A DNA stretch of 64,000 nt from Oscillospiraceae bacterium (GTDB taxonomy: Bacteria > Bacillota > Clostridia > Oscillospirales > Acutalibacteraceae). Of the stretch, positions 45,085-59,057 are shown piece after piece. A program made the position numbers and the translations under genes. Each line of letters opens with the position of its first letter. Within the stretch, counting starts at the first letter, position 1. The notes beneath the pieces are model-generated. The model saw nothing but the letters and a program-made list of their open reading frames with translations, did not search any database and was not told the DNA's origin. The stretch is taken from positions 1 through 64,000 of the forward strand of contig SVOC01000014.1 of the NCBI GenBank assembly GCA_015066625.1. Reading direction: 5' to 3'.

Positions 45085-46632
45085 ATGGCACAGAAAAAGA
45101 CCGTATTCCTGACCGGTGCTTCGGGTACAATGGGTTGGGAAGGCTTCAATCAGCTTTACGCAAAGAAGGATAAGTTCAACATCGTTGTTCTTCTCCGTGA
45201 CAGCGAAAAGAACAGAAAGCAGTTTGCTCCCTATATGAACGATCCTTCGGTTAAGATTGTTTGGGGCGACCTCAAAAGGTATGAAAGCGTTCTTGAATGT
45301 GTAAACGGTGCGGATTATGTTCTTCATGTCGGCGGTATGGTATCACCCGCTGCTGACTATTATCCCATCAACACAATCAAAACAAACGTTGGTGCTGCAA
45401 AGAATATCGTTGCTGCCGTTAAGGCTCAGCCCGATCCCGATGCAGTAAAGGTTGTTTACATCGGTACAGTTGCCGAGACCGGTGAAAGAGATGATCCCAT
45501 CCATTGGGCACGTACAGGCGACCCTGTTAAAATCAGCATTTATGACCACTATGCAACATCAAAGGTTCTTGCAGAATCAGTTTTTGCAGAGTCAGGTCTC
45601 AAGTACTGGGTATCACTCCGTCAGTCAGGTATCCTTTACCCCGAAATTCTTAAAAATATGGAACCCATTATGTATCACGTTGTTATCAACGGTGTTCTTG
45701 AATGGGCAACAGTTGAAGATTCAGGCCGTCTTCTTGTTAATGTTTGCGGTGACGATGTTCCCGAAGAATTCTGGAGAAGATTCTATAATATCGGTTCAGG
45801 TGCTCAGTACAGAATTACAAACATGGAATTTGAACAGCTTCTTCTCGGCGATTGCGGTCTCGGTCTCGGTGATCCCAAAAAGCTCTTTGACCCCGATTGG
45901 TTCATTACCCGCAACTTCCACGGTCAGTGGTACCTTGACTCTGATGTTCTCGAGAATTATCTTCATTTCAGAGCCTATACTCCCATCAAGGATTATTTCA
46001 AGAGCATGATGAACAGAGTTGAATGGTTCTATAAGCTTGCTAAGCTTGCAAAGCCCTTCGCATTTGCTGTTAAGCCCTTTATGAAGAAGATTGCTCAGAC
46101 TCCCGTCTACGGTACACTCTGGTGGAAAGCAAACAACGTTGAACCCAGAATCAACGCTTATGTAGGCTCAATGGAGAAGTGGAATTCAATCGGCAGCGAT
46201 TGGAGCAAGGTTAAGGTTTACCGTCCCAATGATGATCCCTCAAAGGCTCTCGTTCTTGATCACGGTTATGATGAAACCAAGGACTTTGATTCACTTACTC
46301 TCGAAGACCTTCAGAAGGCAGCTGCATTCAGAGGCGGCGAATGCCTTGCAACAGAAATCGTTGATATGTATACTCCCATTCTCTGGAAGTGTGCTCACGG
46401 TCACGAGTTCATGATGTCACCCAACCTTGTTCTCCGCGGCGGTCACTGGTGCCCCGAAGAGCTTCCCTCAACACTTGAAAAGTGCGAGCAGAAGAAATTC
46501 CGTTGGGCATATGATGACGAAGCTAAGGTTAACCCCTTCTTTGCACAGGTTTGGTATCCTCTTCATGACAAGAGCGAAAACAACGTATACACCGAAGAAA
46601 TCTACAAGGATTTCAAGGAATACAAGAACTGA
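45085..46632 (+). CDS. NAD-dependent epimerase/dehydratase with extra C-terminal zinc-finger-like domain
   Basis: TVFLTGASGTMGWEGFNQL; YDHYATSKVLAE; C-terminal LWKCAHGHEFMMSPNLVLRGGHWCPEE. Confidence 0.82.
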   Translation: MAQKKTVFLTGASGTMGWEGFNQLYAKKDKFNIVVLLRDSEKNRKQFAPYMNDPSVKIVWGDLKRYESVLECVNGADYVLHVGGMVSPAADYYPINTIKTNVGAAKNIVAAVKAQPDPDAVKVVYIGTVAETGERDDPIHWARTGDPVKISIYDHYATSKVLAESVFAESGLKYWVSLRQSGILYPEILKNMEPIMYHVVINGVLEWATVEDSGRLLVNVCGDDVPEEFWRRFYNIGSGAQYRITNMEFEQLLLGDCGLGLGDPKKLFDPDWFITRNFHGQWYLDSDVLENYLHFRAYTPIKDYFKSMMNRVEWFYKLAKLAKPFAFAVKPFMKKIAQTPVYGTLWWKANNVEPRINAYVGSMEKWNSIGSDWSKVKVYRPNDDPSKALVLDHGYDETKDFDSLTLEDLQKAAAFRGGECLATEIVDMYTPILWKCAHGHEFMMSPNLVLRGGHWCPEELPSTLEKCEQKKFRWAYDDEAKVNPFFAQVWYPLHDKSENNVYTEEIYKDFKEYKN

Positions 46633-56349: not shown

Positions 56350-57879
56350 ATGAACCTTAACTGTGAAACACAAAAAGCAGGCTTCTGCGAAACTGTTTTT
56401 GAGTCAACTGCGGAGCAATCTCTTGATGCGGATATTTCTCTGCCCGATTACTGCCCTGAAATTCAGCGCATACTTAAATGCACGGTATCGCCCAACGTTA
56501 CCTCGGTGCAGAATAATTCGGGCAGGGTTACAGCAGATGTTAATGCCGCCGTAAGAGTAATTTATGCCGATGAAAACGGAAAGATTGCGGCGTATGAGCA
56601 AAACTATCCGTTGCAGAAATTTATTGAATCAAACAAAATTACCTCAGACTCGGCAGTAAGCGTAACGGTTAATACGGACTATGTGAATTGCAGAGCGGTG
56701 AATTCGCGCAGAGTTGATATCAGAGGCATTCTTACCTTTTTATTCAGGGCAATCAACAAGAGAGAGGAGCACATTCTTTGCGGTGTCAGCGGCGGAGGAA
56801 TGCAGGTGTCCTCATCCGAATACAGCTTCGCTTCGGTGACGGGAGTGTGCGAGAGAGCTTTTTCAATGAGCGAGGTTGTTGAGCTTGATGACAGCCGCGA
56901 GCCCGTTTCAAGAATAATCAATGTTTCTTCAAATGTTTCGGCAAACGATGTGAAGGTAATAAACAACAAGGCACTGATAAAAGGGGATTGCAATGTTAAA
57001 ATTTATTATGTAACAGAAAGCGGCTCCGTTGAAAGCGTTGAACACTCCATGCCCATGAGTCAGATCGTTGAGCTTGAAGGTCTGAACGAAAAAAGCATAA
57101 GCAGTCTTGCTCTCAATGTCTGCTCATGTGAAGCGGCGGCAAAGTCAAATACATCGGGAGATATGCGTCTTATCGATTTAAATATGCGTATAACTGCTTT
57201 TATGGTTGCCTTTGATGAAATTCCTCTTTCGCTTATCGATGACGCTTATTCAACGGAATATGAGGTAAAAAACACGGCAAAGAACACAGAGGTTTTTGAG
57301 TATAACGATAACATTGCAGGTGTGTTCACAAATAAGGTTGTTTTTGAAAGTATAGGTGTCAGCGTTGACTGTGTGCTTGCCGTGTGGTGTTCCGATGTAA
57401 AATATAATTTCGGCTGCAAGGACGGTCAGTTTGTTGCAAGCGGAACCTACAATGCGAATATTTTATATAAAGATTCCGATAACGAACCCGGTGTTGTTCA
57501 GAAACTCGTTGATTTTGAATATGTATCAAAACTTCCCGTAAAAGCAGAAAAGATACTCAGCTACGGCTGTGTATCTGTTCTCGGATGCTCCTGTTCCGTT
57601 ACGGGCGACAGCCGTCTTGAACTGAAAACCGAGATGTCTGTAAATGCAACCGCTCTTACAAGCAGCATGAAAAAATACATAGGTTCAACGGAACTTTCAG
57701 GTGAGCGTGCAAAAAACAAAAAGCCCTGTGCCCTTACAATTTATTTTTGCAATGGGAATGAAAACCTCTGGAATATTGCAAAAAAATATGCAACTACTGT
57801 TGAGGCAATTATGTCTGAAAACGGAATTAATGACGGATGCGTTGAAAGCGGCAGAATGCTTCTTATTCCCGGTGTATAA
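56350..57879 (+). CDS. DUF3794 and LysM domain protein (SpoVID-like)
   Basis: SLDADISLPDYCPEIQRILKC, repeated SPOCS-like regions; C-terminal NENLWNIAKKYATTVEAIMSENG LysM. Confidence 0.88.
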   Translation: MNLNCETQKAGFCETVFESTAEQSLDADISLPDYCPEIQRILKCTVSPNVTSVQNNSGRVTADVNAAVRVIYADENGKIAAYEQNYPLQKFIESNKITSDSAVSVTVNTDYVNCRAVNSRRVDIRGILTFLFRAINKREEHILCGVSGGGMQVSSSEYSFASVTGVCERAFSMSEVVELDDSREPVSRIINVSSNVSANDVKVINNKALIKGDCNVKIYYVTESGSVESVEHSMPMSQIVELEGLNEKSISSLALNVCSCEAAAKSNTSGDMRLIDLNMRITAFMVAFDEIPLSLIDDAYSTEYEVKNTAKNTEVFEYNDNIAGVFTNKVVFESIGVSVDCVLAVWCSDVKYNFGCKDGQFVASGTYNANILYKDSDNEPGVVQKLVDFEYVSKLPVKAEKILSYGCVSVLGCSCSVTGDSRLELKTEMSVNATALTSSMKKYIGSTELSGERAKNKKPCALTIYFCNGNENLWNIAKKYATTVEAIMSENGINDGCVESGRMLLIPGV

Positions 57880-57958: not shown

Positions 57959-58279
57959 ATGAAAATATTTTATGTTACCGATGACAGCTATTCAAAGGAA
58001 ATAGAGGAGTTTGACGGCACAGTGCTCATAGATTTCTTTGCCGATTGGTGTGCACCCTGCAAAATGCTTTCTCCCATAATCGAAGATGTTGCCGAGGATG
58101 TATCCGACAGAGTCAAGGTGTGCAAGGTAAATGTGGAATCGGAAACGGAGCTTGCCAAAAAATTCGGAATAATGACTATTCCCACACTGGTTGTTATGGA
58201 AAACGGTTCTGTAAAAAACAGAAGCGTAGGAGTAACGGGAAAACGTGCAATCATGGATATGCTTGAACAAAAACAGTGA
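57959..58279 (+). CDS. trxA: thioredoxin
   Basis: DFFADWCAPCKMLSPIIEDVA, GIMTIPTLVVMENG. Confidence 0.95.
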   Translation: MKIFYVTDDSYSKEIEEFDGTVLIDFFADWCAPCKMLSPIIEDVAEDVSDRVKVCKVNVESETELAKKFGIMTIPTLVVMENGSVKNRSVGVTGKRAIMDMLEQKQ

Positions 58280-58328: not shown

Positions 58329-58358
58329 TTGACTTGAAACTATGTCTTGATGTATAAT
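58329..58358 (+). promoter_or_regulatory. sigma-A-like promoter of the 45-aa small ORF
   Basis: TTGACT-18 nt-TATAAT. Confidence 0.7.
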
Positions 58359-58404
58359 TTTTTTGCAGTAAACACTGTAAAAATTAAACAGGAGGACAAA
58401 AACA

Positions 58405-58542
58405 ATGGAATTTATAACTGAAATCCTTGCAATGGTTGAGAAGATTCTTGCTTATTTCAACGAAGCAGAAGCAGCAGGTGTTGTTGAAATCATTAAGAAT
58501 TCACTTGCAGCAATTTTTGCAGGTATTCCCATGCCTTTCTGA
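58405..58542 (+). CDS. small 45-aa amphipathic/hydrophobic protein, not in the supplied ORF list
   Basis: AGGAGG ribosome-binding site; MEFITEILAMVEKILAYFNEAEAAGVVEIIKNSLAAIFAGIPMPF; own promoter and terminator. Confidence 0.72.
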   Translation: MEFITEILAMVEKILAYFNEAEAAGVVEIIKNSLAAIFAGIPMPF

Positions 58543-58557
58543 TTTGAAATCTATCAA

Positions 58558-58593
58558 AAAAGCCGACCCTTGGGTACCCAAGGGTCGGCTTTT
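58558..58593. terminator. 36-bp perfectly palindromic terminator
   Basis: AAAAGCCGACCCTTGGGTACCCAAGGGTCGGCTTTT between the small ORF and the convergent ACT gene. Confidence 0.85.
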
Positions 58594-58598
58594 GCTAT

Positions 58599-59057
58599 TC
58601 AAAATTCTTCTTTTATTGCTTCAATTACATTATCAACATCGGATTTGACAACGAGCAGTGAAATTTCTATTTCGGATGTGGTTATCATTCTTACATCCGC
58701 ACTAACGCTTGCTGCCGCTTTGAATATTCTTGCCGATACACCGGGAGTACCGCGCATTTCTTCACCGCTGACGGTGATTTTGCAGTTGCCGCTGCTGACG
58801 CTGATTTTTGTCTTGGGTGACCTTGTGCGAAGCTCTGAGGCGATAGACAGCACAGGAACAAAATCCTTATCGTTAACCGTGAAAGAGAATCCCGAACCGG
58901 AACCGCTTGAAGGGAACTGAGAAATCATATCCACATCAATTCCTGCATCTGCAATCATTTTAAAAACCTCTGCCATATGTTCAATATCGGCAGGTGCATC
59001 GCAAAGTGAAAAAAGCGTTACATCTTCGGTTACAAAAATATTATCAACAAGCTTCAT
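58599..59057 (-). CDS. stand-alone tandem ACT-domain protein resembling the aspartokinase regulatory region
   Basis: ISQFPSSGSGSGFSFTVNDKD; MRGTPGVSARIFKAAASVSADVRMITTSEIEISLLV. Confidence 0.85.
   Translation of the reverse strand: MKLVDNIFVTEDVTLFSLCDAPADIEHMAEVFKMIADAGIDVDMISQFPSSGSGSGFSFTVNDKDFVPVLSIASELRTRSPKTKISVSSGNCKITVSGEEMRGTPGVSARIFKAAASVSADVRMITTSEIEISLLVVKSDVDNVIEAIKEEF

Follow-up and report, generated by a model that had tools for sequence, protein, structure and literature searches.

The window analyzed here, a stretch of 64,000 nucleotides (nt) from an Oscillospiraceae bacterium (contig SVOC01000014.1), carries a 45-amino-acid small-protein gene, MEFITEILAMVEKILAYFNEAEAAGVVEIIKNSLAAIFAGIPMPF, on the plus strand at positions 58405-58542, with its ATG at 58405 and its TGA stop at 58540-58542. 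A preliminary description of this DNA had proposed a stand-alone gene with its own promoter, ribosome-binding site and terminator; direct reading of the sequence found all of its coordinates correct to the base, and the proposal was borne out. A sigma-A-type promoter lies upstream on the same strand (58329-58358), consisting of TTGACT at 58329-58334, an 18-nt spacer and TATAAT at 58353-58358, and matches the consensus at 11 of 12 positions. The only other promoter-like site in the scanned stretch, on the minus strand, matches at 9 of 12, and the total number of such sites is at chance level, so we base the promoter call on how good the match is, where it lies and that relatives conserve it, and not on the scan. 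The nearest relative (G020) has TTGACT-18-TATGAT, and many other members of the family described below have TTGACA-17-TATAAT. A Shine-Dalgarno (SD) sequence, AGGAGG at 58390-58395 on the plus strand, is separated from the ATG by 9 nt, and a comparable SD precedes every listed member.

Downstream of the stop, a perfect 36-nt palindrome, AAAAGCCGACCCTTGGGTACCCAAGGGTCGGCTTTT, occupies 58558-58593 and folds into a 16-bp stem. It lies about 5 nt beyond the stop of a convergent ACT-domain gene on the other strand, and it is therefore probably a bidirectional intrinsic terminator common to both genes. The stricter terminator pattern of the scanning tool did not list it because its T-run comprises four bases only. 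A downstream stem with a T-rich tail recurs in 35 of 40 members, with differing stem sequences. The predicted transcript is about 230 nt long and bears hairpins at both ends.

Several lines of evidence indicate that the 45-codon open reading frame (ORF), which is single-copy in its own genome, is almost certainly a real translated gene. The preliminary description had staked the gene on conservation of its reading frame in relatives, and the frame is indeed conserved. Together with a codon bias resembling that of ribosomal-protein genes, this conservation across species lifts the ORF above chance. The ratio of amino-acid to synonymous changes (pN/pS) is 0.19-0.26 among G000, G020, G036 and G061, 0.24 for a further pair (G002/G062) and 0.06-0.35 among four 39-residue sequences, although distant pairs are near synonymous saturation and their ratios are less informative. 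These excesses of synonymous over amino-acid changes point to purifying selection on the protein sequence. Codon adaptation, calculated with only the organism's ribosomal-protein genes as reference set, is 0.708 against a window median of 0.48, ranking second of 49 (P=0.003 versus background synonymous codons). First place in the window, at 0.768, goes to a gene at 45085-46632 for a 515-residue protein resembling NAD-dependent epimerases/dehydratases.

Beyond what had been described before, the gene belongs to a family. Searched with a profile built from relatives, and with a second profile, 29 of the genus's 45 genomes yielded members at E<=0.001; this count leaves out one longer secreted protein in G022. 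The first alignment proved too diverse, and the LGEF[EK]A[SA]G subset was then used. A few further genera within the same taxonomic family also have members, while 391 class-wide genomes contained none at E<=0.003 apart from the window's own genome. Weak matches from a sensitive search (G035, G012:C378, G025 and others) were discarded, as they lay inside long ORFs or lacked an SD. No match was found in 50,697 phage and 72,556 plasmid records or, by motif scan, in IMG/VR viral contigs. The named records with members are metagenome-assembled genomes from the rumen or ruminant gut, labelled Ruminococcaceae, Clostridiaceae, Lachnospiraceae or Clostridia. Searches against Pfam and NCBIfam gave nothing above curated cut-offs, those against PHROGs, PADLOC and the PDB nothing significant, and an Rfam scan of the region returned nothing. 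Six family motifs are not printed in the paper texts searched; small-ORF catalogues in supplements fall outside such a search, so the sequence may be listed somewhere without a function. We conclude that the small-protein family is real and uncatalogued, that its expression cassette is convincing, and that the function discussed below is a putative one.

The family consensus reads M-x-F-V-x-x-I-L-x-x-V-x-x-I-L-x-x-L-G-E-F-E-A-A-G-I-x-x-I-V-K-x-F-L, followed by a variable tail. Its most conserved residues, E20, A23 and G25 in the numbering of the window protein, are nearly invariant, and the C-terminal third varies greatly in length and sequence. Members range from 36 to 87 residues; two of them (G014, G063) contain a duplicated helix-turn module with two profile matches each, and some, G066 among them, have a third helix. 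All but one of 40 proteins are acidic (net charge -1 to -7), none contains cysteine, and their maximal helical hydrophobic moments span 0.40-0.69. The family's proteins are leaderless; that of the window has a net charge of -4 and a moment of 0.60. AlphaFold2 places helices at residues 2-15 and 20-40 (mean predicted local distance difference test, pLDDT, 77; predicted template modelling score, pTM, 0.45), a model in which the secondary structure is credible and the helix packing is not; Foldseek gave no fold match at E<=0.001. Together with the hydrophobic moments, this prediction agrees with the amphipathic helices proposed earlier, and family proteins are predicted to form two or three of them. 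A three-helix model of a 58-residue member (pLDDT 62) was not used. The C-terminal half, described earlier as hydrophobic, is so only mildly: the Kyte-Doolittle maximum over 19 residues is 1.55, the segment includes two charges, and none of 12 members checked has a transmembrane-grade segment.

A further element of the cassette, also absent from the preliminary description, is a hairpin at what seems to be the 5' end of the transcript. In the window, minimum-free-energy and centroid folds both form GCAGT-AAAC-ACTGT on the plus strand at 58365-58378, with a CAGT/ACTG core at 58366-58369 and 58374-58377; the hairpin begins close to the predicted +1. When leaders were compared, a stem-loop was found to begin at about +1, 4-8 nt past the -10 box, in many members. 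The stems themselves differ: CAGT/ACTG in the window, TTAACAT/ATGTTAA in G036, AACAG/CTGTT in G062, AGGCT/AGCCT in G061, CAATC/GATTG in G030, CGGA/TCCG in G492, CAGTCAA/TTGACTG in G007 and TGCAAAGAG/CTCTTTGCA in G414. Counting perfect stems of at least 4 bp with loops of 3-7 nt, we found one at this position in 20 of 33 members, where shuffling predicts 4.7 and none of 20,000 simulations reached 20. For strict promoter matches the hairpin is present in 10 of 18 members and at 9 of 104 other promoter-like sites in the same DNA (Fisher P=1.6e-5); as members are related, these counts are not fully independent. Stem length alone did not differ significantly from dinucleotide shuffles (combined P=0.18). 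Since only the position-specific tests are significant, we claim the hairpin by its position and not by the strength of its stem. Its position is kept while its sequence turns over. The variable loop lengths speak for an RNA hairpin rather than an operator whose half-sites, bound by a protein, stand at a fixed spacing.

According to works cited in PMC3997798, the aprE and papA mRNAs are protected by 5'-terminal stem-loops. The transcripts stabilized in this way (the Bacillus subtilis aprE leader, Escherichia coli papA and others) resemble the present one in combining an extreme-5' stem-loop with an A-rich stretch and a strong SD. In contrast to them, the hairpin here comes from species comparison alone and its +1 position is predicted. 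By analogy, it may stabilize the small-protein mRNA. Fixed in position but free in sequence, such hairpins offer natural material in which the protection of mRNA 5' ends could be tested cleanly in Clostridia.

The complete cassette, consisting of promoter, 5' hairpin, strong SD, an ORF of 36-87 codons and terminator, stands solitary at many unrelated sites, as a rule in one copy per genome. In the window, its upstream neighbor is the thioredoxin gene trxA (57959-58279, plus strand; PF00085, E=1.9e-27), and downstream lies the convergent ACT-domain gene (58599-59057, minus strand; ACT_9, E=3.5e-23), followed by dapB. Ten genomes of the set share this site after a SipL-domain gene and trxA, whereas in the relative G024 the SipL-trxA pair is present with no such small ORF after it. 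In eight genomes the cassette follows the genes for MscL and for a protein of about 530 residues, in two or three it lies near a pyruvate phosphate dikinase gene, and in the remaining ones it occupies single other sites; neighbor names outside the window's site were read by eye from the sequences and not by profile search. Flanks differ between sites and resemble housekeeping genes. No transporter or exporter, protease, immunity or regulator gene accompanies the cassette at the sites examined. Directly upstream of trxA in the window (56350-57879) is a spore-morphogenesis type gene, whose product combines a SipL (SPOCS) domain with LysM, in line with a spore-forming Clostridia host.

What might such a protein do? 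It is very probably abundant, given its strong promoter and SD, its ribosomal-protein-like codon usage and a 5' hairpin expected to slow decay from the 5' end. The product would be a leaderless, acidic, amphipathic helical hairpin lying on lipid or another hydrophobic surface, or alternatively self-assembling through its hydrophobic faces as in the beta-type phenol-soluble modulins (PSMs). It could leave the cell through a general peptide exporter whose gene lies elsewhere, and then serve the cell surface as surfactant or matrix peptide; otherwise, it could coat membranes from inside. We tentatively favor a mode of action that depends on the amphipathic faces, whether at a membrane or in self-assembly, with a probability of roughly 45%. 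Of the functions offered by the preliminary description, a membrane-active peptide would be the best fit. That the protein is specifically secreted and PSM-like is rather unlikely. Doubtful, too, is the full proposal, in which uncultured rumen Clostridia would possess surfactant or matrix peptides of a new class: abundant, helical, acidic and leaderless, PSM-like outside staphylococci, unrelated in sequence, and encoded by a self-contained cassette that is stabilized by a 5' hairpin and differs in chromosomal address from species to species.

Beta-type PSMs are amphipathic, helical, net-negative peptides of 34-45 residues (PMC7825627), and those of Staphylococcus are the closest functional analogue, homology not being implied. 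The window protein agrees with their physical definition (34-45 residues, leaderless, amphipathic helix, net negative) and, like them, is encoded by its own small gene; longer members exceed the size range. Unlike beta-type PSMs, the family shows a conserved helix-turn-helix whose turn is of the LGEFEAAGI type, spans 36-87 residues with duplicated modules, and belongs to Clostridia; the sequence match is not significant. Beta-type PSMs are marked by surfactant activity and secretion through a dedicated ABC exporter, whereas no export system is known for this family. Two other groups of peptides offer partial parallels. LspU and LspD, PSM-like small proteins of Staphylococcus aureus, were likewise unannotated small ORFs with predicted amphipathic helices and illustrate the ways in which peptides of this kind may work at the envelope, but they are encoded in the untranslated regions of a lipase mRNA and LspU is exported by PSM transporters, whereas the gene here is solitary and its neighbors vary (PMC12607899). 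Leaderless bacteriocins of the lacticin Q and enterocin 7 type are also helical, leaderless and about 50 residues long, but are mostly highly cationic (PMC6131525), whereas the present family is acidic, has no significant saposin-fold match and lacks transporter or immunity genes nearby.

Several observations weigh against a surface-active, PSM-like protein. No Pfam or NCBIfam model of PSMs or staphylococcal hemolytic peptides scored above cut-off; the best weak matches among 27 members (E=0.0034 in Pfam, 0.0014 in NCBIfam) belong to alpha-type models. Of these, the single one resolved spans 15 residues, a match that short amphipathic helices can produce by chance, and convergence is the best reading of these weak hits. 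No exporter gene adjoins any member, and localization and expression are both read from sequence features. A detectable copy is missing from about five of the genus's 15 high-quality genomes; the gene is therefore not essential. Finally, the helix model (pTM 0.45, without a significant fold match) would suit a soluble oligomer or a helical hairpin that binds another protein equally well.

The strongest rival is a cytoplasmic protein forming a soluble helical bundle and acting as a small regulator or chaperone; its hairpin would dimerize or cap a partner, and its hydrophobic face would be a protein interface and not a membrane face. The helix-turn-helix shape with its conserved turn, the acidic and cysteine-free composition, the absence of signal peptide and transmembrane segment, and the purifying selection all suit such a protein, to which we give perhaps one chance in three. 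Against it speak the variable C-terminal third, the sporadic absence among genomes, the lack of a conserved neighbor hinting at a partner, and expression signals whose strength would be unusual for a regulator. The earlier suggestion of a leaderless bacteriocin, which would be exported to act against other bacteria, fits poorly: the lack of a leader, length (36-60 residues), amphipathic helices and tandem pairs of related peptides in one genus (g36) recall such peptides, but 39 of 40 members are acidic where a cationic peptide is expected, tryptophan is almost absent, no site examined has an adjoining transporter or immunity gene, and no bacteriocin family in Pfam or NCBIfam matched. We consider it improbable.

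The many chromosomal sites, self-contained signals and patchy presence could also betray moving cargo or a selfish accessory cassette of a mobile element or phage, yet the phage, plasmid and viral searches were empty, copies are usually single and the neighbors are housekeeping genes, which makes this origin very improbable. Still less credible is a type I toxin, a small hydrophobic peptide translated from a stable mRNA and silenced by antisense RNA. The ORF is short, the mRNA looks stable, and in the fold of the window's own transcript the SD pairs with the ORF end; sequestration of the SD by the mRNA 3' end was nevertheless rejected, as synonymous shuffles pair at least as strongly and relatives do not conserve the pairing. 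Moreover, no antisense promoter exceeds the shuffled level in 40 members, no transmembrane segment is present, and a strong SD with ribosomal-like codons is the opposite of a restrained toxin. A transcript of this size with hairpins at both ends, lacking an Rfam match, leaves room for a new non-coding small RNA with a chance ORF, but the conserved frame, pN/pS well below 1, the retained start and SD, in-frame length changes and the codon bias render it the most improbable of all; as a sole function it is ruled out by pN/pS, with a dual-function RNA as the remaining option.

Genes this small are skipped by annotation pipelines, yet every sequence signal suggests that the product is one of the more plentiful proteins in these bacteria of the rumen and gut. 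Should it prove to be a surfactant or matrix peptide, it would provide a handle on how a large uncultured group meets surfaces, lipids and neighbors in the rumen.

Other small proteins were seen near or resembling family members. In genus g36 a second acidic amphipathic peptide (MDQI[MI]E...GIIDK.....LI) stands in tandem with a member (L106:1863-2000; L107:1181-1327, minus strand; L088:5487-5636). Upstream of a member in two genomes lies a second unlisted small protein with its own AGGAGG, of 54 (L077:5637-5798, minus strand) and 51 residues (L074:6308-6457, plus strand); its pattern is MS[IF]NG[IF]IML..HI.GF.QEV.AH.DDF...NFFGYL, with about 62% identity between the two genomes and no Pfam family above cut-off. 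A protein at L050:1168-1620 combines a signal peptide and a Cys/His-rich region with C-terminal GIDF..I..KV..FIGGIDF helical repeats resembling the small proteins, and may be a secreted relative or a case of convergence. In G034 (L048:1687-1842), another small ORF comes after the gene and consists of three repeats of about 17 residues (MDLSAVMTAVMGILAKI/DYAKLMEVVMGLLKNV/DFAKIMEMVTKLLASVSA).
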